This document shows, one piece after another, positions 1 through 34,039 of a stretch of DNA of 34,039 nucleotides. Origin of the DNA: a virus; the IMG/VR virus record IMGVR_UViG_3300035703_000272, positions 1-34,039 of that record. One strand, written 5' to 3'. A program made the position numbers and the translations under genes. The stretch's first letter is position 1. Every line of letters begins with the position of its first letter. Below the pieces are notes generated by a model. That model searched no databases, had not been told where the DNA came from, and was given only the letters and a program-made list of their open reading frames with translations.

Positions 1-1236
1 TGCAGTAAGTTGTCGATCGATCATAGACAGTTCAAACTCAAGCCTAGTCGCATCGGCAGTCTCTTCCTTCTTACGTTTGTCAGCGCGATACTTTTGCTCC
101 GCCTTGTCAGCTGCTTCGTGCCTCTTTGCTTCGCTATCCAAGAAGTTGGCAAGCAGCGTCTGGCTTAGCTCGTCCATTTCTAGGTTAACTTTTTGGATAA
201 GTTCTAATTCGCGCTGTAATGTCTCTTGTCTTTTTTGCGCTGCCTCTTGTGCTTTCTTAGCTGCCTCTTGAGCTTTACGTGCATTATCTTCAGCTTCTTT
301 GGCTATCTCTGATTCAATTCTATTACGAAGTTTATCGACACTTGATAGCCTTTCTTGTAATTCCGCACGCTTGTTAATTGCCTCAGCTAACTTATTTTCA
401 ATACCTATACGTTCATCATCAGATGCAGTAGTCTTACTTTTTAATGATAATTGCTTTTGAAGTAGTTTTATCTCTTCATTATTCCTCTTAATACTATCAT
501 CTGTCTGCTTCTTGATTAAATTATCGGCGCGCTGTGCAGCTTCTAAACGATCTTTATCTGCCTTGCTTTTATCTTTAGCTAATCTTATTTCGGTAGCAAT
601 AGCCTCATTATACTTAGCTTGCTTTATGTTAAATTGACCTATGCTATCTGCATGTTCATCCATAGCAGCGGTCAATTCGTACTGCGCCTTAATAGTTGCG
701 CCTAGTGATCGTTGTGTCTGCTCTTGTCCTGTAACAAAATTATATATAGCATCTGTAACCCATCTAAACGCAGCACCTACAGCAGCCGTAACTTGTTCAA
801 GTTTTTCCATTACAGGGTTAAGTTTCATTAACCCGTTAATAAGTAGTCCAATAGCGGTTACTACTAACCCAATAGGGTTAGCTAGCAGCATACGGCCAAA
901 CGATGCAAAGGCATTACTTGCCCCACCTATAGGACCAGGCAACGCTTGAAATGCATCACCTATACCACCTAATATCTTGGGATAGTTACCTACATTGCGT
1001 TGATGGTTGCCCATCGTTGCATCAAACTGCTTGAGCCTATCATTATTTTGGTTGTATTGTTGCTGTAGCTTTTGAAGTTTGCCTGTAGTATCATCTAATG
1101 GCAGCTGTCGCATCGCTATCGCCAGCGCTTTGTTTTGCGCAACTAGTTCGTTGTAAGATTGACCCGATGCCTTCTGCGCATTCGTAAGCGCATTAAGATC
1201 CTTCTGCTGGTTTTGATAATTCGTACGCGCTTGCTT
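1..1236. repeat. Imperfect terminal direct repeat, left copy
   Basis: This stretch matches 32804-34039 base for base in length (constant offset 32803) but not in sequence. About the first 185 bases and the last 100 are almost identical. Roughly 190-660 is heavily diverged and 700-1130 moderately. Both copies keep the same open frame. The pattern fits two alleles of one gene at the ends of a circularly permuted assembly. Confidence 0.9.
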
Positions 1237-1455
1237 AAGCTCAGCGTTAAGCTTCTCCATCTCCTGCTGCTGCTCAGCCGTAAGCTTGCCTTGTTCCTTC
1301 TCCGCTGCCTTTAGCTTATTGATCTCGTCGGTTAATCGCTTGACCTCTTGATTTGCCTCGACAAGATTAGCAAGTGCTTGTGGCTCGATGATCTCAATTT
1401 GAGCCGTATCCCCCGCTTCAATGTTAACCTTAAATGTTAGCTCTTCACCATTCAT
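1..1455 (-). CDS. Tape measure protein, N-terminal part (runs off left edge)
   Basis: This is the first 485 codons of the tail tape measure protein, which sets tail length and threads through the tail tube. The ATG at 1453-1455 overlaps the preceding chaperone stop as ATGA. The protein is rich in Lys, Glu, Gln and Ala and almost entirely helical or coiled coil. A hydrophobic stretch near residue 190 (MLLANPIGLVVTAIGLLING) is the kind of segment tape measures carry. The frame is open to base 1. It joins in frame to the C-terminal part at the other end of the window: base 1 corresponds to 32804, and the joined protein would be about 701 residues. The position right after the G/GT chaperones is diagnostic. 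Family known, identity certain enough; only the junction is inferred. Confidence 0.9.
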   Translation of the reverse strand, partial: MNGEELTFKVNIEAGDTAQIEIIEPQALANLVEANQEVKRLTDEINKLKAAEKEQGKLTAEQQQEMEKLNAELKQARTNYQNQQKDLNALTNAQKASGQSYNELVAQNKALAIAMRQLPLDDTTGKLQKLQQQYNQNNDRLKQFDATMGNHQRNVGNYPKILGGIGDAFQALPGPIGGASNAFASFGRMLLANPIGLVVTAIGLLINGLMKLNPVMEKLEQVTAAVGAAFRWVTDAIYNFVTGQEQTQRSLGATIKAQYELTAAMDEHADSIGQFNIKQAKYNEAIATEIRLAKDKSKADKDRLEAAQRADNLIKKQTDDSIKRNNEEIKLLQKQLSLKSKTTASDDERIGIENKLAEAINKRAELQERLSSVDKLRNRIESEIAKEAEDNARKAQEAAKKAQEAAQKRQETLQRELELIQKVNLEMDELSQTLLANFLDSEAKRHEAADKAEQKYRADKRKKEETADATRLEFELSMIDRQLTA

Positions 1456-1990
1456 TTCAGGGGCTCCACATATTCGTAACAGACTTTAGATACATACGCT
1501 TCGGCTATCTCGTGCGCTGGTAAGTCCCAGATATCCTTCGCTCTAAGCGGATCAAAGCCCGACAAGATATAAGCAAAGTACTTGTAACTCCCTACGCGAT
1601 TGCTCCAGATGATGCGGAAACCATTGACGATGCCCTGCTTCGCATTGAAGTTCTGGGCAAACATCATGATCTCTTCGGCTTTCGTCAAAGATAAAGCCGC
1701 GTCATTAAAAAAAAATCCTCGGTATCCTTGAGGATCGTATACTCAAACTCTTCCGACTTAAAAAAGTTAAGGTCTAGAGGCGTTTCGGCATCCCAAAGGA
1801 TATCCGCTTTTGCCTTCCAAAACTCAGCCTTTTTATCCAATGGCATGGTTTCCCACGACATATCGGAATGTTTCGCAGCGTAGTCGCGGATATCGTTGTT
1901 AACCTGATCTAAAAGTGAACGGCGCTTCTCGGTATATGGCACGAGCCGTACGATAACACCGTTCACCTTTGTTCTTTTTTCAAACATCAT
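1452..1990 (-). CDS. Tail assembly chaperone GT fusion by -1 frameshift
   Basis: The second chaperone frame (about 1452-1706) has no good start of its own. Its first start-like codon is a TTG at 1688. It is reached instead by a -1 slip from the upstream G frame at a run of nine Ts. Ribosomes would read 95 codons of G, slip, and continue with Asn-Asp-Ala-Ala into the second frame. The product would be about 179 residues. In lambda-like phages G and G-T bind the tape measure and recruit tail tube subunits, and are not in the mature virion. The stop overlaps the tape-measure ATG as ATGA. Frame geometry is seen directly; the slip itself is inferred from the family and the heptamer. Confidence 0.82.
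1685..1990 (-). CDS. Tail assembly chaperone G-like protein
   Basis: This 101-residue acidic protein sits between the tail tube gene and the tape measure, the usual place of the G chaperone. It starts at an ATG directly abutting a perfect 8-bp hairpin; a second ATG follows immediately. The end of the protein is encoded by GAT followed by eight more Ts, which forms the frameshift site to the second chaperone frame. No enzymatic motif is visible. The call rests on position, size and the slippery site rather than on sequence similarity that I could confirm. Confidence 0.78.
   Translation of the reverse strand: MMFEKRTKVNGVIVRLVPYTEKRRSLLDQVNNDIRDYAAKHSDMSWETMPLDKKAEFWKAKADILWDAETPLDLNFFKSEEFEYTILKDTEDFFLMTRLYL
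1706..1712 (-). promoter_or_regulatory. Programmed -1 frameshift site, T TTT TTA
   Basis: On the minus strand nine Ts are followed by A. In the G frame the codons read GAT TTT TTT TTA, so the heptamer T TTT TTA is in the correct X XXY YYZ phase. A one-base backward slip re-pairs both tRNAs on TTT and leads straight into the second open frame. This is the same heptamer as the HIV-1 gag-pol site. The zero frame ends seven codons later at a TGA (1685-1687). Confidence 0.85.
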
Positions 1991-2014
1991 GTGTCTTACC
2001 CTTTTTTAAGACAC
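1991..2014 (-). promoter_or_regulatory. Hairpin between tail tube and chaperone genes
   Basis: A perfect 8-bp stem (GTGTCTTA / TAAGACAC) with an 8-base loop starts within the tail-tube stop and ends one base before the chaperone ATG. There is no U-tract, so it is not a simple terminator. It would cover the ribosome-binding region and lower or couple chaperone translation relative to the abundant tube protein. The function is inferred. Confidence 0.6.
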
Positions 2015-2413
2015 TGTAGTAACTAAGTCGGCCGAGGTTGCACGCTTGCTAGCCATCAACTTAATACCCGTACGGTTGCCATCGAATACGCGATGCGCAG
2101 TAATGTACACGTTATTGATGTTGATGTTCTGGCTACCCGTTGCGCCAACGAAGCACAAGCGTGCAGCGCTAGGCGTAGTCGTGGTATCGGTATAAACTTT
2201 GGCATCAGTTAACAGCGTGCTATTAAAGCTGATGATCTCAGCCGTCACATCGAACGCGCTTGGAAGTGTTTGGTTATCTTCAAGCGTATCGGTTACAGGA
2301 GTGATCGTAACTTGCGCGCTGTCGGTAACGGTAAGCGGATACTGGACGTACGCGCCACCCGTTGCATTAGCAACGCCCACGGCTTGAAAAATAAGCGGTT
2401 TAGTTATGCTCAT
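2006..2413 (-). CDS. Major tail (tube) protein, putative
   Basis: A 135-residue protein rich in Thr, Val, Ala and Asn with alternating beta-strand character and no transmembrane segment. It lies between the presumed tail terminator and the G/GT chaperones, exactly where the tail tube subunit is encoded in HK97- and lambda-like phages. The ATG at 2411-2413 is 6 bases after the upstream stop. Tube proteins are often larger, but subunits of this size are known. No recognisable family motif was identified, so the assignment is positional. The following hairpin suggests it is expressed more strongly than the next gene. Confidence 0.6.
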   Translation of the reverse strand: MSITKPLIFQAVGVANATGGAYVQYPLTVTDSAQVTITPVTDTLEDNQTLPSAFDVTAEIISFNSTLLTDAKVYTDTTTTPSAARLCFVGATGSQNININNVYITAHRVFDGNRTGIKLMASKRATSADLVTTVS

Positions 2414-2419
2414 TTATAT

Positions 2420-2896
2420 CTATCTAGGAAGGTTGGTGTTTTGAATTTTACTGTAATCTCTTTGTGCGATGATCGACAGGGTCATAGTTACAAACTTAGT
2501 ATTGCGCGTAATGCCTGTTTGAGCATTGTAGCTGAAATAATATAGGTAGCTATTCGTCAGCGTTGCAATGTTAAGTTGGTTAATCCAGTCGATTATTTTG
2601 TCCTTAAGGTCGAGCAGGCGAAGCTCAGCGTCCTGCGCATTGTTATTCATATACGCTTTGATCACGCTTATGTCAATGCCATAACCTGCCTGCATAAGAT
2701 CATTTCGATACTGATCGACACGCGTCTGAGGCGACTCTGTGATCTCGTATATGGCGATACGCGCATCACGTATATCAGCACGCGACTCAATGTCCTGCAC
2801 GTTCTGGCGGTACACTTCGTACGTTACGTATGGTTCGTACAAGTACTCTTCCATACTAGTGCGCAACTTGTTAAGTATGTCTCTACTTACGGCCAA
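2420..2896 (-). CDS. Tail terminator-like protein, putative
   Basis: A protein of up to 158 residues containing helical and strand segments and a motif TYEVYRQNVQD near the N-terminus. Gene order (connector, neck protein, this gene, tube) is that of a tail terminator, which caps the tube at the head end. The start is uncertain: a TTG at 2896 overlaps the upstream stop by 14 bases, while the first ATG is at 2854. The helix encoded between the two (ILNKLRTSMEEY) looks like real protein, which favours the longer form. Assignment is by position and size only. Confidence 0.5.
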   Translation of the reverse strand: MAVSRDILNKLRTSMEEYLYEPYVTYEVYRQNVQDIESRADIRDARIAIYEITESPQTRVDQYRNDLMQAGYGIDISVIKAYMNNNAQDAELRLLDLKDKIIDWINQLNIATLTNSYLYYFSYNAQTGITRNTKFVTMTLSIIAQRDYSKIQNTNLPR

Positions 2897-3365
2897 TTAG
2901 CACCTCGGCAATCATGCGGTTTATCTTGTCCATTATGTCTGCAGGTACCGACTCGACTCCCTTAGGGAAAATCGAGCGCATACGCAGGCCTGCTTTGCTA
3001 TATTGAATGCCATCGTGATGGTACTTAAATACCTTGCCCATATCTGGATCTTCGAAGCGAATGGTTGAGCCTTCACCTGAGGTAACTTCGATACGCGTAT
3101 TTTCAATGCGTCGTTTGTTTGCGCGCATCGTTACTGGCGCTTCTGGTAGTCCTTGTCGTTTACGATATACCCTATACTTAGGTGTGTACTCGTTGTCGTA
3201 ACGGTCATTGCCGAACGCCTTGCCTGCCAACGTGTTATCTTTCATGCGCTGCGCTATATCCTCGGCAATGACAGGTGTGACCTTATCGTTGAGCTCCGCT
3301 ATGCGTGAGCCTATGATTCTTTCAAGCTGTACCGTAAAACTCTCGCCTTCAAGCGTTATCTTCAT
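2883..3365 (-). CDS. Neck / tail-completion protein (HK97 gp10-like position)
   Basis: A basic 160-residue protein with a helical N-terminus (residues 1-50) and a central patch of Arg/Tyr (YTPKYRVYRKRQGLPEAPVT) followed by strands. Proteins of this size between the head-tail connector and tail terminator generally belong to the gp10 / virion-morphogenesis group that closes the neck. The ATG at 3365 overlaps the upstream stop in an ATGA, suggesting translational coupling. No conserved catalytic residue is expected. The family call is inferred from order and overall character. Confidence 0.5.
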   Translation of the reverse strand: MKITLEGESFTVQLERIIGSRIAELNDKVTPVIAEDIAQRMKDNTLAGKAFGNDRYDNEYTPKYRVYRKRQGLPEAPVTMRANKRRIENTRIEVTSGEGSTIRFEDPDMGKVFKYHHDGIQYSKAGLRMRSIFPKGVESVPADIMDKINRMIAEVLIGRK

Positions 3366-3994
3366 AACACATACCTAATGAATGGCGTGAGCAGGTTACG
3401 CGCTTCGACGGACAAACCGTTGACCACAACGCGCTGTGTGGCGTTCGGATCTTGACGGTTCTTATACTGAAGGCTTAGCTCTTGCATAATGCCCATGCGT
3501 ATCGATGCTGGGCAGTTGCCAGCGGTGTATCCGCTCTTAAAGGTAATGATCAAATATTCGTCCAAACCGCTTACGATCTCAAGCCACTTGAAATCCGATC
3601 CATGTACATAGTAGTCATCATTGGCCACTAGCGTTGTATCTTGATTATCGTAAGTCCTTGATATAACGCTAGTTATAGCGCCATGTATTCCGTATGGCAA
3701 AAGCACCTTTGTAGCAGGGCGCACCCATATTGAACGTCGTGTCTTCTCATACGTATCTAATGCAATGTATCGTTCGACCTGTTCGGTCGTCGCCTCGAGT
3801 AGCATCTGAATGTAGGCGTCATGCACATTGGTATTGACGGGCAAGATCTCTTTGGCTTGTTGCAATGTAAGTGCATACTCGCGAGGGTCATCAATTATCG
3901 TATTCTCACTTGCCGTAGTATTGAGCGAGTAAGCACCCGTTAAACTGTCATACTGCCTTGCGATAAACGCTTGCTTGCCGTTAATTGATATCAT
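3362..3994 (-). CDS. Head-tail connector, gp6 / phiE125 gp8-like
   Basis: A 210-residue protein with a helical core (LTLQQAKEILPVN, then DAYIQMLLEATTEQVERYI) followed by a beta-rich middle and a final helix carrying IMQELSLQYKNRQ. This arrangement of an N-terminal 'LTLxxAK' helix, a helix ending in VERYI, then strands is typical of the HK97 gp6-like connector that binds the portal ring and forms the head-tail joint. ATG start at 3994, overlapping the upstream gene by 14 bases. The next gene begins in an ATGA overlap, so the neck genes look like one translational unit. Confidence 0.72.
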   Translation of the reverse strand: MISINGKQAFIARQYDSLTGAYSLNTTASENTIIDDPREYALTLQQAKEILPVNTNVHDAYIQMLLEATTEQVERYIALDTYEKTRRSIWVRPATKVLLPYGIHGAITSVISRTYDNQDTTLVANDDYYVHGSDFKWLEIVSGLDEYLIITFKSGYTAGNCPASIRMGIMQELSLQYKNRQDPNATQRVVVNGLSVEARNLLTPFIRYVL

Positions 3995-4202
3995 GTGCCT
4001 TACGTGACTTAGGTCTAATGACCTTTGGTGCGTTGGATGTGTTGTCCGTTGCCACTATCTCGGCCGTGCCGTCATAGATGTAGTATTCAAACATACGCTT
4101 TTCTTGAGCGTGAGCTGCGGTATATATCTCACCTTTCTTGTACTCTTTGACGTTACGTCCGTCAAAGCTGCTAAAGGTGTCAAATTTAAAGCGTATAGTC
4201 AT
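3981..4202 (-). CDS. Small protein between capsid and connector genes
   Basis: A 73-residue protein (starts MTIRFKFDTFSS) with a mostly beta N-terminal half and a basic tail. No family recognised. It opens the head-tail connector block, and its ATG is only a few bases behind a strong UUCG-loop terminator, so its transcription must depend on read-through. In related phages a small gene here is often a minor head or connector-associated protein, but nothing in the sequence proves that. Confidence 0.55.
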   Translation of the reverse strand: MTIRFKFDTFSSFDGRNVKEYKKGEIYTAAHAQEKRMFEYYIYDGTAEIVATDNTSNAPKVIRPKSRKAHDIN

Positions 4203-4205
4203 GGC

Positions 4206-4233
4206 AAAAAGTAGGGTAGGCCGAAGCCTACCC
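4206..4233 (-). terminator. Intrinsic terminator with UUCG tetraloop after the capsid block
   Basis: On the minus strand an 8-bp perfect stem GGGTAGGC / GCCTACCC closes a C(UUCG)G tetraloop and is followed by TACTTTTT. It lies 6 bases after the stop of the small structural gene and about 3 bases before the next ATG. It should attenuate transcription from abundant head proteins into the connector genes. Confidence 0.88.
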
Positions 4234-4239
4234 CTTTAT

Positions 4240-4668
4240 CTAGTTGGTTGGTGCGTTGTTAGGAAAGCCTAATACGCCCACAATAGCAACGTTGACATTA
4301 GATGTCACAGAAGTTGCATTGGTTTTGTACACTTCTGGGAATACATAACGCTTGGTAGGACGGATGGAGTAGTAGGCAACCGTGTTAACAGCCGTCAAAT
4401 TCTCCGTCTTAATTAGGTTAGCAGCAGCCAAACGTGTGGCATTAGCTACGTTGGTATCATCGCCTTCACGGAAAGCTAGCGTTAACGCATTGCCTACGTT
4501 GATAGCGCCCGTTGCATCACCTTTAGCGCCACCGACAAGGGCGACACCTACACCGCTGAACGTTGCCGTATCAATGGCGGAACCGTTAGCGTTCGCATTG
4601 GTCGTGCCACCCGTGAGCAGCGCGGACCATTGTACATTACTTTGCTGACCGAAATCAAATAAACTCAT
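4240..4668 (-). CDS. Small head structural protein, decoration-like
   Basis: A 142-residue protein rich in Ala, Asn, Thr and Val, without charged helices, transmembrane segments or cysteine. It directly follows the major capsid gene (15-base gap) and has one of the clearest ribosome-binding sites in the window, TAGGAGACTACAATG, which suggests high expression. Together with the terminator right behind it this points to an abundant virion component such as a capsid decoration protein. No family identified; an alternative is a second tail or head fibre-like structural protein. Confidence 0.55.
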   Translation of the reverse strand: MSLFDFGQQSNVQWSALLTGGTTNANANGSAIDTATFSGVGVALVGGAKGDATGAINVGNALTLAFREGDDTNVANATRLAAANLIKTENLTAVNTVAYYSIRPTKRYVFPEVYKTNATSVTSNVNVAIVGVLGFPNNAPTN

Positions 4669-4683
4669 TGTAGTCTCCTAAGG

Positions 4684-5844
4684 TTAAGATGCGGTCATAG
4701 TTAACTGTGCGATGGCTTCGTCACGGATGACGGCGCCACCGAAACGGCTCATCACGTACAGATTAGTCACAAAGCTAGATGCTTCGCTGTACTGGTCACG
4801 AATGACGTAGAAGTCAGTGTGGCGAACAACGGTATATCCATAGCGGAAGTCACCGTACAACACTGGCACTTGACCAGCGGTGAACACACCAGTAACGTTA
4901 CCTACAAGGTCAGGTGCTTCATAAACTGGAGAGCCTAACAGACGCGATGGCGTGCCAGCTTGGAAACTTGGCTCCCATAAGTAGGCAAGGCCGTTGGTGC
5001 TGGATAGTACCAGCTGACGGATAGCAGCTAACGTCAAACGGTTAGCCATCCAAGATGCATTGGCCAAATAGTAATCTTTGAGCTGACCTTGCAGGCGAAT
5101 CAAGTGATCGCTAGTCAGTGTCAAAGCTGTAGAGTTGTAGTTGGTCACGTTGCCTACAAGACCCGTAGGCTTGCTTACGCCATTGCCATTAATAAACGCA
5201 GTACCCAGCGACTTCTCAAACTGCTCACGGATGGAGCTGTTGATTTCGGCCTCAAGGTCGTATGCTGCGTCTTGCTCTTGCTCGATCGTCCATGCGACGC
5301 GTGCAGCCAACTTGAATACTGGAATGTCAGTATATCCAAAGCTGTCCTTGGTCTTTGTGCTTGCAACATCTTCGTCTAACCACGATGCGGATAGCGACTC
5401 ATTACGCTTAGCTTGCTTGTAGCTTGGAGCAGATGTCTCAACTACGCGTGCTACTTGAAGTACAGGGCTGATCTCAACGATTTGCTTGTTGATATCATCA
5501 GACATCTGTGCAGGCAGGAGCAATGCGCCAGCTGCTGCGAGATCAAAGCGAACAAGGTTATCGCTCTTCAATTCACCGCCACGACGGACGTTGATCTTAG
5601 TGTCTTTCATCTGCGCTTCAACAGCGCCAATGCCTCCTTTAGCAAATAACGTAACAGCTTTTTTAAAGTTGCGTACGTCATCGCTCTGCTGCTTAGGCTG
5701 AGCAGGATTGATGCTCTTCAAGCCCATTTCGATTTGATCTAAACGGCTATTGATCTTAGTGGCTTGCTCGTTATTCTTGTTAATAACTGCTTCTTTAAGC
5801 TCAACCGCTAGATCACGAAACTCTTTTTTAGCGTCAAGTTTCAT
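4684..5844 (-). CDS. HK97-fold major capsid protein
   Basis: A 386-residue protein with a charged coiled-coil N-terminus (about residues 1-100) of the delta-domain type that replaces a separate scaffold and is removed by the protease. The rest carries hallmarks of the HK97 family: WLDED, then FKLAARVAWTIEQEQDAAYD of the spine helix region, and FEKSLGTAFINGNGVSKPTG. It follows the prohead protease by one base and precedes a decoration-like gene. There is no Shine-Dalgarno; the leader is AT-rich (TTATTAACATG). No separate scaffold gene is present, in keeping with the N-terminal extension. Confidence 0.93.
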   Translation of the reverse strand: MKLDAKKEFRDLAVELKEAVINKNNEQATKINSRLDQIEMGLKSINPAQPKQQSDDVRNFKKAVTLFAKGGIGAVEAQMKDTKINVRRGGELKSDNLVRFDLAAAGALLLPAQMSDDINKQIVEISPVLQVARVVETSAPSYKQAKRNESLSASWLDEDVASTKTKDSFGYTDIPVFKLAARVAWTIEQEQDAAYDLEAEINSSIREQFEKSLGTAFINGNGVSKPTGLVGNVTNYNSTALTLTSDHLIRLQGQLKDYYLANASWMANRLTLAAIRQLVLSSTNGLAYLWEPSFQAGTPSRLLGSPVYEAPDLVGNVTGVFTAGQVPVLYGDFRYGYTVVRHTDFYVIRDQYSEASSFVTNLYVMSRFGGAVIRDEAIAQLTMTAS

Positions 5845-5845
5845 G

Positions 5846-7264
5846 TTAATAATTTTTAATTTCGGTTATTAGTGACTTTAACTCATCCACAAGTGATTGA
5901 TAAGCATCGTCTTGCGGACGCTTAACTGTCTTTCGACGTGTTATGCTCTTTTGCCATAAGGCTTGCTTACGCTTTAAGCTGCTTTTACGTGATTTAGCAG
6001 CCATAATTTGTGCTTCCGTGTTCATTGGAAATGGCGTAATGCTTACCTCGTGCAGTGCTACTTCCTTAAGTAGCCGTGTACCGTCAGCGCCTGGCATCGA
6101 TTTAATGGTATCATAACCAATCGACAGCCCCATTTTAGCGCCTCGGTCCAACATAAATTTGATTTTCTTATATGCGCTTGCAACTTCTGGATCATCCAAC
6201 GGCATCTCGGCCTTCATGTATAGGCCTTTCTCTTGATCCTCAAGCACGGCAACGCCAGCGACATCACGTGTATTGTATCCGTGATCGAGTAACAATGGTA
6301 CGATACCTTGCTTATGCAGCAGCGTTTGTTTGAATGCGCCCTTCTCGACTACGTCGCCACCTAGATCGGTGTTGCCGTAAGTTGATGCGAAGCCTTCAAT
6401 GACGCCTACTTTAGTATCATCGACTTCTTGGATGTCCATCTCGACCTGCTTAAACTTACCGATGATACGACGCTTTGGAAGTTCCGCTTCTTCAAGCGGT
6501 TCAATTTTAGATAGCGTGCTAAAGCGGTGACCGACTACTACGCCAGACGAACGCCAGCCACCTTCAACGCGCTCATACACTTCAATCAGTGCAGCTGGAT
6601 CTTCGGGGCTTGCATCGACCGTGAACTCGCTATCGGGTACATTCAATGATTCGCTGGCGCTGATCTCAATGATCTTGCCCTGCGCTTCTCCGCCAGCCGA
6701 TTCCCACTTAACAAAGTCGCCATCGGTAAGTTCGCCAGCTGCTGCCTTCATATCGTCAGGCATATCTTCGGCATCGGTATCTAGTTCGGTATCGATTTCT
6801 TCCTCAACTTCGCCTTCAAGGTAATCCTCAGCGTCGTGCAAATTTTCTAATGGCAAATTTAGCAGCTTATCAGTCGGTTCCATTTGATCGCCAGCCGTAG
6901 CGTACACGCGAACGGTATATACATTGGCTTCAGCGTCGAGGTTTTCGATGATGCCAAATCCGTCGCCATCGCCATCAATAAAATGAACCATGTCGCCTAG
7001 GCCATATTCTTTTTGCTCTTCGATAAGCTCATCGTCAACCATTGTCTCAGGATCGTCGATCATTTCGGCCATCTGGTTGATGATATCATCAATCTGTTTG
7101 GCTTCATCTGCAGCTTCGATGGCTGCGATAGCAGCGTATGCCGATGCCTCGTCAGCGTGACAGGCAAAAGGAACTCGCTGTTCGCCTTCCAACTTATACA
7201 CCATGGCTTGACCGGTATCGCCGCTCTCCATGTTGCATTGTTCTTGTACTACTTCAAAAGGCAT
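5846..7264 (-). CDS. Prohead protease (HK97 type) with N-terminal SH3-like insert domains
   Basis: A 472-residue protein, about twice the length of a plain U35 protease. Residues 285-425 hold the protease: VIEGFASTYGNTDLGGDVV, catalytic-type His in DHG (327-329), Ser381 in GLSIGY and a conserved LHEVS (404-408). In front are a short N-terminal domain with ACHADEASAYAAIAAI (about 34-50) like that of other phage proteases, and two barrel-like modules starting LGDMVHF (89) and DGDFVKWESAGG (181), the second ending VVVGHRFSTLSKI. Highly acidic linkers join them. The C-terminus is basic and could aid packing in the prohead. The enzyme should trim the capsid N-terminus. The extra domains' role is unknown. 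Confidence 0.88.
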   Translation of the reverse strand: MPFEVVQEQCNMESGDTGQAMVYKLEGEQRVPFACHADEASAYAAIAAIEAADEAKQIDDIINQMAEMIDDPETMVDDELIEEQKEYGLGDMVHFIDGDGDGFGIIENLDAEANVYTVRVYATAGDQMEPTDKLLNLPLENLHDAEDYLEGEVEEEIDTELDTDAEDMPDDMKAAAGELTDGDFVKWESAGGEAQGKIIEISASESLNVPDSEFTVDASPEDPAALIEVYERVEGGWRSSGVVVGHRFSTLSKIEPLEEAELPKRRIIGKFKQVEMDIQEVDDTKVGVIEGFASTYGNTDLGGDVVEKGAFKQTLLHKQGIVPLLLDHGYNTRDVAGVAVLEDQEKGLYMKAEMPLDDPEVASAYKKIKFMLDRGAKMGLSIGYDTIKSMPGADGTRLLKEVALHEVSITPFPMNTEAQIMAAKSRKSSLKRKQALWQKSITRRKTVKRPQDDAYQSLVDELKSLITEIKNY

Positions 7265-7284
7265 CGGTTGTGTTGTTTGGATTG

Positions 7285-8565
7285 TTATATGGTACTTGGA
7301 GGTGGTGCGTTTGGATTCATTGGTTTATCATATCCTGGCAGAGATTCGTAACCTACCTTATCGCGCGCCTCATTAACTGAAATAATGCCAGCGTTAACCG
7401 TTGCAATATCAACGTAGGTGAGCTGACCTTTTTCTTCTAGGTTAGCGAATCCAAGCTCTTCACGTGCTTCGTTAACGGTCATAATACCAGCCTCAACCGC
7501 TTTCATTAAGCGATCGATCTTGGCTGCTCGCTCTTCTTGAATAGCTTCAATGCTATCGTAGTCAATACATATCTTTGGATTGTCAGAGTAAAATGGTTGT
7601 AGCGATCGGTTAAGTGCGCTATAGATCATCTTGCCAAGCGGAATAGCTGCTTCGCTGTAAAGCGCCTTGCGTGCTTCTTGGAAGTTACTATACGTCTTGT
7701 TGCTTGCATCGTTGAGCAGCTCGCTCGATAGGCCTAAAGCCATAACGATCATTCGCATTGATATCTGTATCGCCTCGCTCCATTCGGTTTCCTGAGGCTT
7801 ATCGCTAAAGCGTTGAAGCGTAGCGTTTTCGCTGATTATTTTTAATCGGTGCGCATTGGCTGCACCCGACTGCGCTTGCCATTGGTCCTTTAGCATATTA
7901 GCCTGAGCCTGCGTTATGCCAGGCATGCTGGCTATGATCGGTGGCGTACCACCACCTAAGGCAACATTCTTGTTCCACGTAATTGCGCTATTGTGCAGAT
8001 CAATCAGCTCGCCTAATGGAACACCTGGCGACATACCGTGAAAGTACTCGCGAAGGTTAGGCATCTTGATGTATATTACTTCTTCCTTGCCAAAGTACAC
8101 GTCACGGTTTTCACGGTACACATAGCCTGTTATCGGATTAATATAGTCACCTTGAATTGGATCAGTGTACTGCGATGGCATCACCACCAAGCCCAATGGA
8201 CGTTGATCGTAGTCGCTCTTGACGATGTTCAGATACCCCTCGCCAGTTGCGATGATGTACAAGCATAATAGCTGAATCATTTCTTCACGCGTTGTATCAC
8301 GCTCCATCATACGCAGGATAGGATGATCGGTCGTCGTCGTAGTACGTCCACGTGTGCTGCTTTCAATATAGATCGGCATGCTAGCTACCGTTCGTGACAA
8401 TAGCATAGCAGCAGCATAGAAAGGAGCGTTACGCTCGAAGGCTTGCTCAATTAGTTTGCGCTTATCCCAGCGCGTATAGTCTTGCCAGCCGTTACCCCAT
8501 AGGATACCTTGATATACACGACTTGGTAAACTCTTGCGATTGAATAGATTAGAATACCATGCCAT
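7285..8565 (-). CDS. Portal protein, HK97 gp3-like
   Basis: A 426-residue protein. The ATG at 8565, two bases after the terminase stop, is preferred over an in-frame TTG at 8580. Features of the HK97-type portal family include the N-terminal FERNAPFYAAAMLLSRTVAS helix, DHPILRMM with the following EMIQLLCLYIIATGEGYLNI, VIYIKMPNLREYFHGMSPG, and the helix around MALGLSSELLNDASNKTYSN. It forms the dodecameric DNA channel at the capsid vertex and docks the terminase. The Pro-rich C-terminus (NPNAPPPSTI) is ordinary. Position between terminase and protease is canonical. Confidence 0.94.
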   Translation of the reverse strand: MAWYSNLFNRKSLPSRVYQGILWGNGWQDYTRWDKRKLIEQAFERNAPFYAAAMLLSRTVASMPIYIESSTRGRTTTTTDHPILRMMERDTTREEMIQLLCLYIIATGEGYLNIVKSDYDQRPLGLVVMPSQYTDPIQGDYINPITGYVYRENRDVYFGKEEVIYIKMPNLREYFHGMSPGVPLGELIDLHNSAITWNKNVALGGGTPPIIASMPGITQAQANMLKDQWQAQSGAANAHRLKIISENATLQRFSDKPQETEWSEAIQISMRMIVMALGLSSELLNDASNKTYSNFQEARKALYSEAAIPLGKMIYSALNRSLQPFYSDNPKICIDYDSIEAIQEERAAKIDRLMKAVEAGIMTVNEAREELGFANLEEKGQLTYVDIATVNAGIISVNEARDKVGYESLPGYDKPMNPNAPPPSTI

Positions 8566-8567
8566 GT

Positions 8568-9863
8568 TTAAACGATCCAATAGTTATTGCGGTTGCCTGG
8601 ATACATACGTCCATAGATCTCCCAAAGTGCATATCGTGCCGTATCGGCATCGTGCGTTTTGACTCGACCTTCTTTGTAATCGGACGACTTGTCGAGGTCG
8701 CCATACTTGTCGGCTTTAGCAGCTTGAAGCGATTGATATACGTTGCGCTCAGCAGGATTGAACTTTACTAAGTCATTGCGTAGCGCCCAGTTAACGCATT
8801 GTATTGTGTCCTTAACTGGTGGGTTAGCCAATGGTACCTTGTATCGTAGACGATCACCGAACGCATCACCATACAATTCACGCACTGCCTTCCACATGCT
8901 GCCCGTTGCAAGTGCTGTACGGTTCTCGCCAGACGCATCGCCTAACAAGATGATGTTACCACGATGGTTCTTGTAATGTTCAATCAATTTTTGAGCGTCT
9001 TCGAAAACGGTCGCTTCCTTCATCTGAAAGCTCTCAACGCATCCAGCTAATGGCTGTGCCTTATCATTACGACCGAACTCTTGCCATGCGGATACGGCAC
9101 GGTACTCAACGTTAAAATCCCAACTAAGGTATAGATCTTGGTTAGCACTATAAACGCACTCTTGTCTGTGCTCTGGTAAGATGCTAAATAACCCAAGGCC
9201 TGTCAGCGATACGCGTCGGCCGTGAAGATAGCGGTCGAGCTGCGCTCCATCGTAGGTTGCGCGTAGTAGCTTTTCATAACGCTCACGGAAAGCGCGATCA
9301 GGATTGTCCTTAAGGCTGATCTCATAAAGCGTTCCGCCTTGATCTTCAACGAATTTATACAATGGCGCGTCTGGTTCGTCGGGCATCGATGTCACACGGA
9401 CCCGCGCTTGACCTTTACGGATACGGCTAACAAAGGTTGTGAGCGCTTCGGTTGAAAAGTAGCTGGCCTCGTCCGCCCATCCCCAACTATAAGCAACCGA
9501 TTCGATACGCTTAATGACATCGGCTTCGGCTGATCGTAAGTGAATGATCGACCCCATAACGTTGATGGTCATGGTCGATTGATTGAAGCGGTACGGTATG
9601 GCAAGCTGTTTGAATAACGGTTCGATGTCTTGAAAGTAAATATCGCGCGCCTGTTGCAGCGTATTCCACATCAAAAGCCCCTGGCTACCTGGCTGGCGAT
9701 CGAGCTCAGCAATGACGAATCGTGCACCGCACCAAGTTTTGCTTGAGCCCTTAGCGCCTACGATAGACACGAAGCGCGTATTACCAGCGACAAAGTCTGC
9801 TTGGTACGGGCGCATCGGTTGGATGACGCTATCTTCGGTGCTATAGCTTAGAGCTGCGTTCAA
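8568..9863 (-). CDS. terL: Terminase large subunit
   Basis: The packaging ATPase and nuclease, 431 residues. Walker A is GAKGSSKT (36-43) and Walker B is WADEAS (129-134). The RNase H-like nuclease follows with LSWDF (Asp249), ILLGDASGE (Asp309) and a late THDADTA (403-409), supplying the acidic metal ligands. The annotated TTG start overlaps the upstream stop as TTGA. An ATG at 9815 (MRPYQADFV) just before the Walker A region is an alternative and would still give a full ATPase. It is separated from the small subunit by five other genes, which is unusual. Confidence 0.95.
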   Translation of the reverse strand: MNAALSYSTEDSVIQPMRPYQADFVAGNTRFVSIVGAKGSSKTWCGARFVIAELDRQPGSQGLLMWNTLQQARDIYFQDIEPLFKQLAIPYRFNQSTMTINVMGSIIHLRSAEADVIKRIESVAYSWGWADEASYFSTEALTTFVSRIRKGQARVRVTSMPDEPDAPLYKFVEDQGGTLYEISLKDNPDRAFRERYEKLLRATYDGAQLDRYLHGRRVSLTGLGLFSILPEHRQECVYSANQDLYLSWDFNVEYRAVSAWQEFGRNDKAQPLAGCVESFQMKEATVFEDAQKLIEHYKNHRGNIILLGDASGENRTALATGSMWKAVRELYGDAFGDRLRYKVPLANPPVKDTIQCVNWALRNDLVKFNPAERNVYQSLQAAKADKYGDLDKSSDYKEGRVKTHDADTARYALWEIYGRMYPGNRNNYWIV

Positions 9864-10105
9864 GCGAAGGCAACGATATTGGATGCGGTCGTATCGGTGT
9901 TACTGACTCGTTTGACGCTCAGGTCAAGGAAAGTGCCAGCGTTAATATTCTTGATAATGACGCTTGAACTGCCATCATACGGGATGACGTTGATATTACC
10001 TGCTGTTCCTACGTATAGGTAACGAACAGCTATTGAAATGTTGGTCGTATCCGATGGTGTAACCGCTTCGAAGTAAGTGGACGATCCGCGTTCTGCTCTT
10101 TGCAT
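9860..10105 (-). CDS. Small spike-base-like beta protein (RcGTA rcc01079-type)
   Basis: An 81-residue protein, taking the ATG at 10105; a second ATG at 10117 lies inside a hairpin. The pattern AVTPSDTTNI, YLYVGTAGNINVI, INAGTFLDLSVKRV and TTASNIVAFA matches the small beta-sandwich family I know from spike-base proteins of the Rhodobacter gene transfer agent and many phages ('TPSDTT... LYVGTAG... VPAG... VRRV... TGI VA'). In those systems it sits at the head spike base. Here it directly precedes terL, away from other structural genes. Family recognition is from memory, not a search. Confidence 0.65.
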   Translation of the reverse strand: MQRAERGSSTYFEAVTPSDTTNISIAVRYLYVGTAGNINVIPYDGSSSVIIKNINAGTFLDLSVKRVSNTDTTASNIVAFA

Positions 10106-10108
10106 AAA

Positions 10109-10143
10109 TGCACACATTTAGAAGGTTCATCTAAATGTATGCA
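10109..10143 (-). promoter_or_regulatory. 13-bp hairpin at the junction of the sugar cassette and terL block
   Basis: On the minus-strand RNA a 13-bp stem (one G-U pair) TGCATACATTTAG / CTAAATGTGTGCA with a 9-base loop ends about 3 bases before the preferred ATG of the next gene. Read on the plus strand the same hairpin is followed by seven Ts (10145-10151) and would be an intrinsic terminator for antisense transcription. Confidence 0.6.
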
Positions 10144-10177
10144 CTTTTTTTAAAATATGTGTATGATTTTTAAAATT

Positions 10178-10825
10178 TTATTTGTATATCGCCTCGCACT
10201 TATCAAGAAACGTCTCGATGTGTTTATGCGTGCGGATCTGAAACATGTGATAACTCATCTCTATCGTGCCAATTCCGAACGTTGTACCGCATCCATACAC
10301 TGGCATTCCATCGCGCAGCTTCCAGAATGGCGCCTCAATTGGTGGGAAGTCGTAGCGTAAAGGCATGTAATATATGATCGGCTTACCGTGCGCTTCGTAG
10401 GCATAGGTTACCTCTTCGGCTACGTCGCCTCGCTCGGTCTCGGCAAATGACGGACGACCGATTGCGGTCCATTCGTGTAGGTTGATGCCCATAAAAGATG
10501 GGGCAACAAACACATGTTGATTATTTTCGATATGATTGCTGCGTTGAATGTTGCCTACTAGCTTACCTTTGCTTGCATGTAGCAGCGTCATTTCGATAGC
10601 TTGTAACGATAGCGGTATCGCATCGATGTCCATAATCAGTGCCACATCATAGCCTACGTTTAACGCATGTGACAGCATCCAATCGCAGGTTGCTCCGTGT
10701 GGCTTAGTTGTAAGTACCTGCTTGAACTCGATATCGCATCCAAGCTTGTACACGACTTTGCGCTGAGCTTCAACGATTGCAGGTGAGATATTGCCCATGT
10801 AAGGCGATAGTATTATTGGCTTCAT
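10178..10825 (-). CDS. Glycosyltransferase-like protein with DID motif
   Basis: A 215-residue cytoplasmic protein with an N-terminal Rossmann-like region and ALIMDIDAIPL, whose Asp66-Ile-Asp68 fits the metal- and nucleotide-sugar-binding DxD motif of GT-A transferases. Later it has AETERGDVAEEVTYAY and a conserved-looking PIIYYMPLRYDF. No transmembrane segment. It is the last of four sugar-related genes between the terminase subunits, coupled in an ATGA-type overlap with the FkbM gene. The donor and acceptor cannot be told; host surface glycan or virion protein are both possible. Confidence 0.6.
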   Translation of the reverse strand: MKPIILSPYMGNISPAIVEAQRKVVYKLGCDIEFKQVLTTKPHGATCDWMLSHALNVGYDVALIMDIDAIPLSLQAIEMTLLHASKGKLVGNIQRSNHIENNQHVFVAPSFMGINLHEWTAIGRPSFAETERGDVAEEVTYAYEAHGKPIIYYMPLRYDFPPIEAPFWKLRDGMPVYGCGTTFGIGTIEMSYHMFQIRTHKHIETFLDKCEAIYK

Positions 10826-11373
10826 TGGCGTACAAAGATTTGATCGTATCCGCAGTCGTAGGTCTGGTCGGTCAGTTCGTACCCGTGTGACTTCATGTAA
10901 AAAATAAACTCATCACGGTTTTTAAGGTGTATCATCTCTACCTGTATCTTGTCGATATCATACTCGAACAAATCGGTATCCATTATGACCTCTTCGTCCA
11001 TGCCTTCTATATCCACGAATAGGATATCGATGTGCCTAGGTGCGCTGTTAAGTACTTGCGATAGGGTAACCGTTGGGCAAAGGAACGAAGCTATCGTTGC
11101 ATCGTCATAGCCATGTTTTAAAATGTGGTTACGGTCGGTCGATGCAACTTCGTATCTAGGGCCGTCTAATGTGCTGTAATAAAATTCAATAATGCCTAAT
11201 TCTTTATCGCTCGGCACTACGGCAGCATTAATGACATACGCGTCTGGATACTTTGAGCGCAGTATCGGCACGTGATAGATATTAGCCTCCACCAAGATCA
11301 GCTTATTGTCAGCCGTGTAAAATTGCGTGACGTGGTCATCACCTACGCATGCGCCTAGTTGAATTATGTTCAT
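10822..11373 (-). CDS. FkbM-type SAM-dependent methyltransferase
   Basis: A 183-residue protein beginning with a short SAM-binding strand-loop (IIQLGACVGDD), a ribose-binding acidic residue in LILVEANIYH (Glu29), and the family hallmark IDILFVDIEGMDEEVI (Asp121, Glu123). FkbM enzymes usually O-methylate sugars or polyketides. Compared with full-length FkbM proteins (about 230-250 residues) it is slightly short but has all core motifs. It overlaps both neighbours by 4 bases, so it belongs to the sugar cassette and probably methylates a sugar added by the adjacent transferases. Confidence 0.78.
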   Translation of the reverse strand: MNIIQLGACVGDDHVTQFYTADNKLILVEANIYHVPILRSKYPDAYVINAAVVPSDKELGIIEFYYSTLDGPRYEVASTDRNHILKHGYDDATIASFLCPTVTLSQVLNSAPRHIDILFVDIEGMDEEVIMDTDLFEYDIDKIQVEMIHLKNRDEFIFYMKSHGYELTDQTYDCGYDQIFVRQ

Positions 11374-12221
11374 AGATTTGCAATGTAATCTTCAAGTTTA
11401 CGTGTTGGTGTCCAGCCTAGCTCCGTGCGTGCATCGTGGTTATCGCATACGCTTATCGGATAGTTGCCCTTCTGGTCAGGAACATTAACGTGAGTGATAT
11501 CTGGATATCTAGCTTTAAACATTTCGAATACCTTGTTAATGGTCACAGGCATATAAGCACCGAGCTCGAACTCACGGAGCTTGCTATCGGTATGCATAAT
11601 CTTTACAAGGCCGTCAACAATATCGTCCACATGTGTGAAGTCTCGCACTTGGTTGCCATTGCCTACGATCGTTAACGGTTCGTTTTTGGCTATCATACCA
11701 CGCCATTTGCCAATGAGTGCAGCTTGATCACCTTCAGTTATCTCATGTGGTCCGTACACGTTGTAGAAACGTGCTATACGTGTATCGACATCGAAGCACT
11801 TATGGTACATCATACATAGCTGTTCACTCATAAACTTGTACGTTGCGTATGGCGATATGTGCGGATCGTGCCAGCGTGAGGATGAACCGGCATAGATGAA
11901 CTTAAAACCGTACATGTAAGCATTGACTAGTATATCCTTTGTTAGCTTAGCGTTACTATCAAAGTAGGTTAATGGCAAACAAAAAGATGCTTGAATACGT
12001 GACAAGGCTGCAAGGTGAAAGCAAACGTCAATATTCTCATATATTTGCTTGTCGTATATATTTAATAATCGTGTATCATAATACTTGCAGCCATCCACGT
12101 GGTTTTCTTTTGTACCTACGCTATAGTTGTCGATTGATCGTACCTCATGCCCATCAGCAACGAGGCGTTTGATGAGGTTAGTACCAATGAATCCAGCACC
12201 ACCTGTGACTAATATTCGCAT
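11370..12221 (-). CDS. NAD-dependent sugar epimerase/dehydratase (extended SDR)
   Basis: A 283-residue enzyme with the nucleotide-binding GGAGFIG (7-13), acidic strand end SIDNYS, AGSSSRW (serine of the active site) and the catalytic Tyr125-x3-Lys129 in YATYK. FYNVYGP and VRDFTHVDDIVDG are standard for UDP-glucose 4-epimerase or dTDP-glucose dehydratase relatives. It would interconvert nucleotide sugars in the cytoplasm for the neighbouring transferases. The start has an AAGGA about 9 bases upstream. It overlaps the GT2 gene by 13 bases. Exact substrate cannot be read from sequence. Confidence 0.92.
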   Translation of the reverse strand: MRILVTGGAGFIGTNLIKRLVADGHEVRSIDNYSVGTKENHVDGCKYYDTRLLNIYDKQIYENIDVCFHLAALSRIQASFCLPLTYFDSNAKLTKDILVNAYMYGFKFIYAGSSSRWHDPHISPYATYKFMSEQLCMMYHKCFDVDTRIARFYNVYGPHEITEGDQAALIGKWRGMIAKNEPLTIVGNGNQVRDFTHVDDIVDGLVKIMHTDSKLREFELGAYMPVTINKVFEMFKARYPDITHVNVPDQKGNYPISVCDNHDARTELGWTPTRKLEDYIANL

Positions 12222-15174: not shown

Positions 15175-15783
15175 TTATGAATCTTTTAAAGCAAGATAGT
15201 TGCTCGTCAGTTGCATAAAGTCATCCAAGCTACGTGCGATACGGTACGCATAGCCCTCAAGCTCGCATATGTTCTGGAATAGCTTTTGACTATCGGTCTG
15301 CCGTCCTGTCTCTGTCTTCATTTCTATAAAAAGCCCATGAAAGCCACCACGCGGAGCCATAATGAATAGATCGGCTACGCCTGCCAGCACGCCTTCACGC
15401 TTTAGGATGCTGCCTGTTTTCGGCTCACGCTTAGATCCATTAGGTATAGCAAAGATCACTATATCGCGGTGTTTGGTTCGGAAGTATGCAACGCAAGCCG
15501 ACTGGATGCGTGACTCAGCATGTTTCATAACTTTTTTCTTAACAATTATTTTTGGTTTCTTCTTGATCCATAGGTGCTTTTTTTCGCTTGGTGTACAATG
15601 CCACGATAGGAACCGTTTGGCACGTCCTTTCATTACTTTTTCTTTAGAATAGCCGGCATCAAGTATTGTTGAATAGAACAGGTTAATACTGAACTCATAA
15701 GGCATTTTTTCGTATGCGTCCTTAAGTATGCCTTCCTTCATGTTTGGCTGGTCTATGTATTTATGAAAATCTAGCTGTATCAT
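15175..15783 (-). CDS. VRR-NUC domain nuclease
   Basis: A PD-(D/E)XK nuclease of the VRR-NUC group, 202 residues from the ATG at 15783 (TGATG overlap with the upstream stop). Residues 88-190 carry the core: AESRIQSACVAYF, IPNG (113-116), LAGVADLFIM with the catalytic Asp, FIEMKTETGRQTDSQ with the Glu-x-Lys pair, and a closing GYAYRIARSLDDF. These enzymes cut branched DNA, and phages use them as Holliday-junction-type resolvases. The N-terminal 85 residues are basic and lack a recognised fold. With the Erf protein upstream it forms a recombination pair that would process concatemers before packaging. Confidence 0.88.
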   Translation of the reverse strand: MIQLDFHKYIDQPNMKEGILKDAYEKMPYEFSINLFYSTILDAGYSKEKVMKGRAKRFLSWHCTPSEKKHLWIKKKPKIIVKKKVMKHAESRIQSACVAYFRTKHRDIVIFAIPNGSKREPKTGSILKREGVLAGVADLFIMAPRGGFHGLFIEMKTETGRQTDSQKLFQNICELEGYAYRIARSLDDFMQLTSNYLALKDS

Positions 15784-15995
15784 CACGGCACCAATTCGTT
15801 GACGTCAACGCCAAGATCGTTAAGCGCAGATCGTATCAAGCGCACAAGCTCTGCCTTACGTAAGCTCTTAGCTTGAGGTAGTATATCGTTTTTAATCAAG
15901 TTAAGTGCGTACGCCATGCGCTCACCGTGGACAAGGTGCTTGAGTCGCACCGTGTCCATTGGATCTGCATCGCATAATTCTATCAATGTTTTCAT
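15783..15995 (-). CDS. Unknown small protein
   Basis: A 70-residue, mainly helical protein (MKTLIELCDADPMD...VNELVP) with alternating Leu and charged residues (LVRLIRSALNDLGVD). The start overlaps the holin-like gene as ATGA and the stop overlaps the nuclease start. No family recognised. Tight coupling to both neighbours suggests it is translated; it might be a helper of the nuclease or an unrelated early protein. Confidence 0.6.
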   Translation of the reverse strand: MKTLIELCDADPMDTVRLKHLVHGERMAYALNLIKNDILPQAKSLRKAELVRLIRSALNDLGVDVNELVP

Positions 15996-17650: not shown

Positions 17651-18310
17651 CTAAAAAGGTAAACCATCTTCGTTATAAGTGTATGCTGGTGGATGCTTTT
17701 CGTTCATCACCGCAAGCTCAATCGTTTCGGCATCCTTCTTCGATACCTTGTACTTGCGACGTATGCGATCCATTGTCATCTTGTCATCTTCAATCATCAA
17801 ACGCACGACCTCTTCACCCTTTTTGGTTAGGTTACCATCTTTGTCGGTTGCGTTCAGCCACGGCTTATCATCTGTATTGACCTCAGATTTCGGTTGTAAC
17901 GCGCGATCGGCTGTCGGTGCACTTGCTGTATTGCCGTCATCGTCGTCGTCGCTTACAATGCCTAGAATTGAGCTGAGTCCGTAGCGTCGGCCGTAGGTCT
18001 GAGCGCTGCCGATACCTTGAGGATCTTGCTTGCTTGGACGTAACGTGATCACGCTCTGGATCCATTCACCGCTTTCGTGGAACACGGTCGTCACTACGTT
18101 CACGTACGTGCCATCGGTTTCGGTGTTTGTTTGCGTAAATCCTAAGCCATTCGCCCGTAAGATAGGACGAACAGCTTCTACGATGTTATGCAAGGTAGCG
18201 TACTTTGATTTGTACACGGGATTTGACCCGTCGGTTAAGATAGGTTTGAACTCGCTTTGCGCTTTAATAAGTGCGCTAAACAGTTTGTTCGTTGTTTCGC
18301 TTTGCTTCAT
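17651..18310 (-). CDS. erf: Erf-family single-strand annealing protein
   Basis: A 219-residue recombinase. The N-terminal 125 residues are the Erf domain: ALIKAQSEFKPI, YKSKYATLHNIVEAVRPIL, and the signature GSAQTYGRRYGLSSILGI (101-118) followed by five Asp. It anneals complementary single strands, circularising DNA or building concatemers. The C-terminal third is flexible with a small helical domain, and the last residues, NEDGLPF, resemble the acidic hydrophobic tip of bacterial SSB proteins. It overlaps the upstream small gene by 35 bases. A VRR-NUC nuclease lies downstream in the same operon. Confidence 0.92.
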   Translation of the reverse strand: MKQSETTNKLFSALIKAQSEFKPILTDGSNPVYKSKYATLHNIVEAVRPILRANGLGFTQTNTETDGTYVNVVTTVFHESGEWIQSVITLRPSKQDPQGIGSAQTYGRRYGLSSILGIVSDDDDDGNTASAPTADRALQPKSEVNTDDKPWLNATDKDGNLTKKGEEVVRLMIEDDKMTMDRIRRKYKVSKKDAETIELAVMNEKHPPAYTYNEDGLPF

Positions 18311-29640: not shown

Positions 29641-29663
29641 GTTAGTACGTATGTCAAAATTAA

Positions 29664-32152: not shown

Positions 32153-34039
32153 TTATGCGAATGTAAATTGTTGTGTTTTGATTTCTCGCTCACCCTCACG
32201 CACGGCAATAGCTAGACCCTTACGGTCAACCTTAGCGTTTACAGTTATGCCCATGTCACGCGATCCGGCAGCACCTGCCATGCCTGCACTTAGATTAGCG
32301 TTGCCCATCGTCATCGGTGCTCCTGGATTGAACGCATTGCCCACCATTGGCACGCGCCCTGCGCTTGCTGTTGGTGTTGGTATAGGCGCTCCAGTAGTGC
32401 TTGTACTACCAATATTAGTAGCAAGAATCTTTTTAACGTTAGCGTATCCAGCAGTTAGCACTGATGCCATAGCTGCGAACCTTGCAATAGTGCCCCCACG
32501 CGTTGTTGCTAACACGCTTACTGACGCTGCTAATGTATCGATAATAGCTTGCGCTACGGCTATCGCCTTGGTATCGCCAAACAAGTTACGGCCTACGGCT
32601 ACCGAATCGTTTGCTATCTGTAATAAATTAGCCAATTTATCATCACGATCTTTTTTATTAAGTGCCTGCATGGCAGCACTATACTCTTTATCGGCCTTAA
32701 GTTTAGCCATGTTAGCTGCTTCATGGCTTTCAATATTCTTTGATTCGTAGTATTGACGTAGTTCATATATCATTTGTTGATGCTGCGCCTCAAGTGCTTG
32801 ACGTGCAGTAAGTTGTCGATCGATCATAGACAGTTCAAACTCAAGCCTAGTCGCATCGGCAGTCTCTTCCTTCTTACGTTTGTCAGCGCGATACTTTTGC
32901 TCCGCCTTGTTAGCTGCTTCGCGCCTCTTTGCTTCGCTATCCAAGAAGTTGGCAAGCAGCGTCTGACTTAGCTCGTCCATTTCTAGGTTAACTCTTTGAA
33001 TCAATTCTAACTCTTGCTGTAGCGCCTCTTTTCTTTTTTGCGCTGCTTCTTGCGCTTTCTGCGCTGCCTCTTGAGCTTTTTGCGCTTGCTTCTCTGCTTC
33101 TTGAGCTATCTCCTGTTCTATGCGATATCTAATCTTATCAACACTACTTAGCTTATCTTGAAGCTCACCGCGTTTATTTATGGCTTCAGCTATCTTATTT
33201 TCAATAGCTAATTTATCCGCATCAGCTGCCGTATTTTTGCTTACTAAAGCTAATTGCTCCCGTAAATTTTTAATGTTTTGATCGTTTCTCGCTTGCTGCT
33301 CTTTATACTGTTTATTTAATAATTTATCCGCCCTATCAGCAGCAGCTAATCTTTCAGCATCCGATTTACTTTTATCTTTAGCTAGTCTTAACTCTTTTGC
33401 TATCTGTTCATTATACTCAGCTTGGGTAATGTTAAACTGACCTTGACTATCCTCAAAAGCATCGATTGCAGCGGTCAATTCGTACTGCGCCTTAATAGTT
33501 GCGCCTAGTGATCGTTGTGCTTGCTCTTGTCCTGTAACAAAATTATATATCGCATCGGTAACCCATCTAAATGCAGCGCCTACCGCTGATGTAATTTTTT
33601 CAACCTCTTCCATAATCGGGTTAAGTTTCATTAACCCGTTAATAAGTAGTCCAATAGCGGTTACTACTAATCCAATAGGATTAGCTAACAGCATACGGCC
33701 AAACGATGCAAAGGCATTACTTGCCCCACCTATAGGACCAGGCAACGCTTGAAAGGCATCACCTATACCACCTAATATCTTGGGATAGTTACCGACATTG
33801 CGTTGATGGTTGCCCATCGTTGCATCAAACTGCTTGAGCCTATCGTTATTTTGATTATACTGTTGCTGTAGCTTTTGCAGCTTGCCCGTAGTATCATCAA
33901 GTGGCAGCTGTCGCATCGCTATCGACAGCGCTTTGTTTTGCGCAACTAGTTCGTTGTAAGATTGACCCGATGCCTTCTGCGCATTCGTAAGCGCATTAAG
34001 ATCCTTCTGCTGGTTTTGATAATTCGTACGCGCTTGCTT
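32153..34039 (-). CDS. Tape measure protein, C-terminal part (runs off right edge)
   Basis: The last 628 or so codons of a tape measure protein; the 5' end lies beyond the window's right edge and is represented at 1236-1455. Composition is coiled coil with Ala/Gln/Lys-Glu repeats (AQKAQEAAQKAQEAAQKRKE), then a C-terminal region with hydrophobic helices (TLAASVSVLATTRGGTIARF) and a Gly/Pro/Ala-rich end (TASAGRVPMVGNAFNPGAP). Within the repeated part it differs from the left copy mainly in the coiled coil. Followed immediately by the distal tail gene. At about 1.5 angstrom per residue, 701 residues would fit a tail of roughly 100 nm. Confidence 0.9.
   Translation of the reverse strand, partial: KQARTNYQNQQKDLNALTNAQKASGQSYNELVAQNKALSIAMRQLPLDDTTGKLQKLQQQYNQNNDRLKQFDATMGNHQRNVGNYPKILGGIGDAFQALPGPIGGASNAFASFGRMLLANPIGLVVTAIGLLINGLMKLNPIMEEVEKITSAVGAAFRWVTDAIYNFVTGQEQAQRSLGATIKAQYELTAAIDAFEDSQGQFNITQAEYNEQIAKELRLAKDKSKSDAERLAAADRADKLLNKQYKEQQARNDQNIKNLREQLALVSKNTAADADKLAIENKIAEAINKRGELQDKLSSVDKIRYRIEQEIAQEAEKQAQKAQEAAQKAQEAAQKRKEALQQELELIQRVNLEMDELSQTLLANFLDSEAKRREAANKAEQKYRADKRKKEETADATRLEFELSMIDRQLTARQALEAQHQQMIYELRQYYESKNIESHEAANMAKLKADKEYSAAMQALNKKDRDDKLANLLQIANDSVAVGRNLFGDTKAIAVAQAIIDTLAASVSVLATTRGGTIARFAAMASVLTAGYANVKKILATNIGSTSTTGAPIPTPTASAGRVPMVGNAFNPGAPMTMGNANLSAGMAGAAGSRDMGITVNAKVDRKGLAIAVREGEREIKTQQFTFA
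32804..34039. repeat. Imperfect terminal direct repeat, right copy
   Basis: Right-hand copy of the 1236-base repeat described at 1-1236. The final ~95 bases are the same as 1142-1236; divergence is concentrated in about 32990-33465, encoding the variable coiled coil. Confidence 0.9.

Follow-up and report, generated by a model that had tools for sequence, protein, structure and literature searches.

Genes of tape-measure proteins (TMPs) are among those that most often carry metagenomic islands in co-occurring honeybee phages (PMC13331135), TMPs are over-represented in sequence mosaicism (PMC10684548), and the TMP belongs to the variable core of Clostridium perfringens phages (PMC3118219). The remark of a first-pass annotation of the DNA treated here, that this gene is not usually thought of as a hot spot, is contradicted by the first two of these reports. 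It is to be noted that a genuine case of recent mosaicism in TMPs could not be confirmed in PMC10684548. As for assembly, it is known that de Bruijn graphs acquire loops and bulges from strain diversity (PMC11443906).

How does the locus described here compare with these systems? Like strain-variant bubbles and the end overlaps of circularly mapping phages (PMC11443906), it shows collapse elsewhere and a contig broken or looped at a variable gene; unlike them, it has terminal identical runs of unequal length, and the window (the whole stretch analysed, 34,039 nucleotides of IMG/VR record IMGVR_UViG_3300035703_000272) is known from its contig sequence alone. With metagenomic islands (PMC13331135) it shares that the variation of a phage population is concentrated in the TMP gene, while here the variation is seen not as coverage but as two sequences of equal length, at the base level, in one record. 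With mosaic TMPs (PMC10684548, PMC3118219) it has in common conserved ends, a variable coiled or helical middle and mosaicism by sequence; the differences are that homologous segments appear to have been exchanged here, that synonymous sites point to recent recombination, and that the length is unchanged.

The window begins and ends within a TMP gene, and the two incomplete copies, called alleles A and B below, overlap as follows.

1..1455, minus strand: left copy (allele A), the N-terminal 485 codons of the TMP gene, with the start at 1455, running off base 1
32153..34039, minus strand: right copy (allele B), the C-terminal 628 codons and the stop of the TMP gene, cut at base 34039
1..107 (= 32804-32910): outer identical run, 107 bases
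1123..1236 (= 33926-34039): inner identical run, 114 bases, the longest identical run in the overlap

Bases 1-1236 align with bases 32804-34039 without a gap, with 187 mismatches in 1236 positions and thus 84.9% identity (BLAST E=0, far above chance), so that the first-pass annotation was right to state that the ends align in the same frame with no change in length. The shared frame lies on the minus strand and is open in both copies, and 104 of the 187 mismatches fall on third codon positions. Because frame and length are kept and third positions are in excess, sequencing noise is excluded for both copies. The outer ~185 and ~100 bases had been described as almost identical; indeed, only three mismatches are found between bases 1-186 and the matching bases of the right end, and 107 and 114 bases at the two extremities are identical throughout. 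Inside the overlap, runs of 50-66 identical bases are present, 66 being the longest. The strongest divergence lies in 187-660, and in the best-scoring divergent block, 277-666, 136 of 390 sites differ (maximum chi-square 173; none of 60 permutations exceeded 16). The earlier claim on 190-660 holds as to where divergence is highest but not as to its limits, since 661-1122 is moderately divergent too (dS 0.2-0.4).

The gene is predicted to encode a tail length tape-measure protein from weak family matches, the length of 701 aa when the copies are joined, a mostly helical model and its position in the tail module. PHROG tape-measure matches are weak but consistent (PHROG 3336 as the best, E 9.1e-6, and also PHROGs 1686 and 4704), a Pfam search of the TMP gave zero matches, and isolated phages, mostly those of Bacteroides and Phocaeicola, match it weakly with ~26% over half of the query. 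The gene sits downstream of the head genes, its neighbours being head-tail adaptor, capsid, protease, portal and terminase. In a structure model of low confidence (mean pLDDT 57.9), the right copy comes out almost wholly helical; the model served only for placing residues 193-350 of this fragment, which make up the variable block, inside long helices. Elsewhere in the window, the prohead protease (Peptidase_S78) at 5846-7264 has an extra upstream stretch matching Hva1_TUDOR (PF11160, E 2.5e-8), and a 971-aa protein at 22556-25471 contains many 120-bp repeat units (40 aa), is collagen- or fibre-like, and matches virion structural and tail fibre PHROGs. Scans of the window for tRNAs and Rfam families came out empty.

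Three relatives were found in IMG/VR (G001, G002 and G003), and none among 84,980 species genomes in two scans by terminase and capsid alignment. The closest, G001 (IMGVR_UViG_3300044729_001353, 33,611 bp), matches window 30149-34039 with its bases 27875-31758 and window 1-3088 with its bases 30523-33611, and these two matches overlap on one TMP. All three relatives run across the join of the window's ends with a single TMP gene, and more distant contigs have likewise one TMP apiece at the corresponding place. When the two copies in the window are joined, the gene measures 1455+651=2106 nt, or 701 aa, which is exactly the size of the TMP gene in G001 (2106 nt, 701 aa), and the TMP of G002 has 697 aa. 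The contig of G001 ends at window 3088/3136, ~47 bases short of a closed circle and with no end overlap. Since this contig is nearly a closed circle cut elsewhere than the window, gene order in the group is circular. From this near-circle, and from relatives that cross the join with one TMP, it follows that the window maps as a circle of ~32,803 bp and that its end repeat is one locus that was read two times. As far as can be read from the sequences, this phage has a circularly mapping genome of ~32.8 kb and a single TMP gene of about 701 aa. The two contig ends of G001 meet at window 3089-3135, close to where G001 goes from about 89% down to 77% identity with the window. Several related contigs (L059, L060, L061 and L051) break off within the TMP gene or right at its end, as the window does, in numbers too small for a test.

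How, then, can a genome with one TMP gene display two alleles of it? With high probability, the genome is circular with one TMP gene, the locus was passed twice via two co-occurring strains, and the middle of the gene was exchanged by recombination. Most simply, in an assembly graph built from two strains that probably coexisted, the rest of the genome would collapse and the TMP gene would remain as a long bubble. The contig would go once round the circle and cross the TMP locus twice, picking up allele A on the left and allele B on the right, and a path of the form anchor-A-anchor-rest-anchor-B-anchor would reproduce the layout of the window. Because such a path has anchors, the outer runs of 107 and 114 bases would be the longest in the overlap; as observed, the end overlap lies between near-identical anchors of these lengths, with divergence inside and an internal maximum of 66. 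A plain de Bruijn path expects both outer runs to equal the k-mer size of the assembler, and the two are unequal. Among the three options of the first-pass annotation, the joining of two strains in assembly is the best supported, while a real tandem duplication has against it that G001, G002 and G003 cross the junction with one TMP.

Switching between strains by the assembler could also have produced part of the block structure of the overlap, provided that it worked with a k of at most 66. It might also be that allele A is a chimera of several strains or species made by the assembler. The internal identical runs of 50-66 bases would permit such switching at small k, and the rod segment of allele A, when searched alone, has no close relative in IMG/VR, although near-identical records may be masked by the search. 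On the other hand, frame and length are kept, third positions are in excess, and dN/dS is below 1 in the divergent block, so that each segment of allele A does at least come from a functional gene. We consider a chimeric allele A unlikely.

The reading of two strains with an exchanged middle is distinguished from plain divergence of a variable gene by what happens at synonymous sites, for which the divergent block has to be defined in both copies.

187..660, minus strand: most divergent block of allele A, in the helical rod, with a dS of about 1.6 to allele B
32990..33463, minus strand: divergent block of allele B, G001-like (91% aa, dS to G001 0.51), within long predicted helices

Between A and B, dS is 0.026 in 1-186, 1.63 in 187-660, 0.20 in 661-756, 0.40 in 757-900, 0.24 in 901-1122 and 0 in 1123-1236. 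Between B and G001, the same six blocks give 0.38, 0.51, 0.89, 0.46, 0.16 and 0.04 in order, with no jump in 187-660. Tree topology changes together with the A-B divergence: informative sites that support A=B against those that support B=G001 number 13:1 in 1-186 and 14:110 in 187-660, and third positions only give 11:0 against 8:52 (p 3e-8). Could the same picture arise with no recombination, from nothing more than a higher rate of evolution of the rod segment in two clonal strains, be it through relaxed or through diversifying selection? It is true that in every comparison this middle region varies most, that dN is raised there (0.27), and that PMC10684548 warns of rate variation in TMPs that can mimic mosaicism. 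However, over a few hundred bases dS climbs from 0-0.03 to about 1.6, and third positions show a switch of topology with respect to G001, which makes clonal divergence of this kind quite improbable. Relaxed constraint alone would not shift synonymous divergence and topology in this abrupt manner, and hence the difference between A and B fits natural homologous recombination better; the synonymous-site and topology tests support the suggestion of the first-pass annotation that TMP variants had recombined.

In such an exchange, the helical-rod part would have been replaced in one lineage by that of a diverged relative, with frame and length kept. As the distance between B and G001 is kept in all blocks, A is probably the recipient of the imported segment. 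Neither a donor of this segment nor another carrier of A turned up among IMG/VR records. At the protein level, allele A is 87% identical to the G001 TMP, and allele B 96%, gap-free. Two genes in the window encode proteins that may be related to the exchange.

17651..18310, minus strand: Erf-like single-strand annealing protein (PHROG 2324, E 4.5e-49)
15175..15786, minus strand: protein with a Holliday-junction-resolvase-like match (PHROG 5702, E 3.8e-14)

Judged by these matches, the Erf-like protein could be a candidate agent of homologous exchange, with the resolvase-like protein as a possible partner in recombination. Mosaicism of the whole genome, together with the Erf-like protein, agrees with recombination. 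The window resembles G001 in gene order across the join, in TMP length, in the TMP of allele B as given above, and in the genes at 1452-2896 (97-99% aa identity), but the two differ in the capsid (82%), in the gene at 29664-31691 (69%) and over the tail region (64-69%). To G002, the capsid is 99% identical and the TMP about 61%. Window 1452-12883 is strongly mosaic when compared with G001, G002 and L028: tail-side genes are at 97-99% and capsid and adaptor at 77-82% to G001, and the reverse is seen with G002. A nucleotide-sugar epimerase carried by the phage at 11370-12221 shares only 54% identity with its counterpart in G001 and 86% with that in G002.

It is also conceivable that both alleles are carried by a real molecule, either as a heteroallelic concatemer or as a headful-packaged virion with a heterozygous 1.2-kb terminal redundancy after recombination in co-infection. 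Terminal-redundancy heterozygosity after recombination in co-infected cells is classical in T-even phages. The overlap lies exactly at both ends, at 3.8% of the unit it would be of a plausible size for terminal redundancy, gene order is circular in the relatives, and the Erf-like annealing protein is present in the phage. However, what comes out of a bulk metagenome assembly is an average over many molecules, so that a single heterozygous pair of ends should not become the consensus, and the ends of G001 lie elsewhere, with no overlap. A molecule of this kind is very unlikely, and a shade more so in its narrower form of a natural terminal-redundancy heterozygote, in which concatemers from co-infection are packaged with ends that carry two different TMP alleles.

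Are there two TMP genes after all? Two copies are in the window, yet they are truncated on opposite sides and jointly make one gene, and the locus holds one TMP in G001, G002, G003 and more distant contigs; two complete adjacent genes are not seen, the end of the contig cuts into either copy, and synteny contradicts a tandem gene duplication, to which we give hardly any credence. The least probable source, to the point of being negligible, is programmed diversification by a diversity-generating retroelement or an invertible cassette, which the local hypervariation in a tail gene might recall but which the substitution pattern (all types, without adenine bias), the repeats (a third copy, a template repeat and inverted repeats are all absent) and the scan of genes (a reverse transcriptase is absent among those scanned) contradict.

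The overlap at the ends of the window is most likely one gene assembled from two strains, in which the ordinary and already known variability of the TMP is seen, and not a duplicated gene. It gives a caution for virus catalogues: an end overlap of about 85% identity can conceal a closed circular genome; IMG/VR classes such a record as 'linear' when end repeats are not found. What the window adds is a pair of TMP alleles at the base level, in which synonymous sites argue for a recent exchange of the helical rod at constant length. If reads confirm the pair, it would, with the slight added value that PMC10684548 leaves to it, serve as a usable example of recent TMP recombination.
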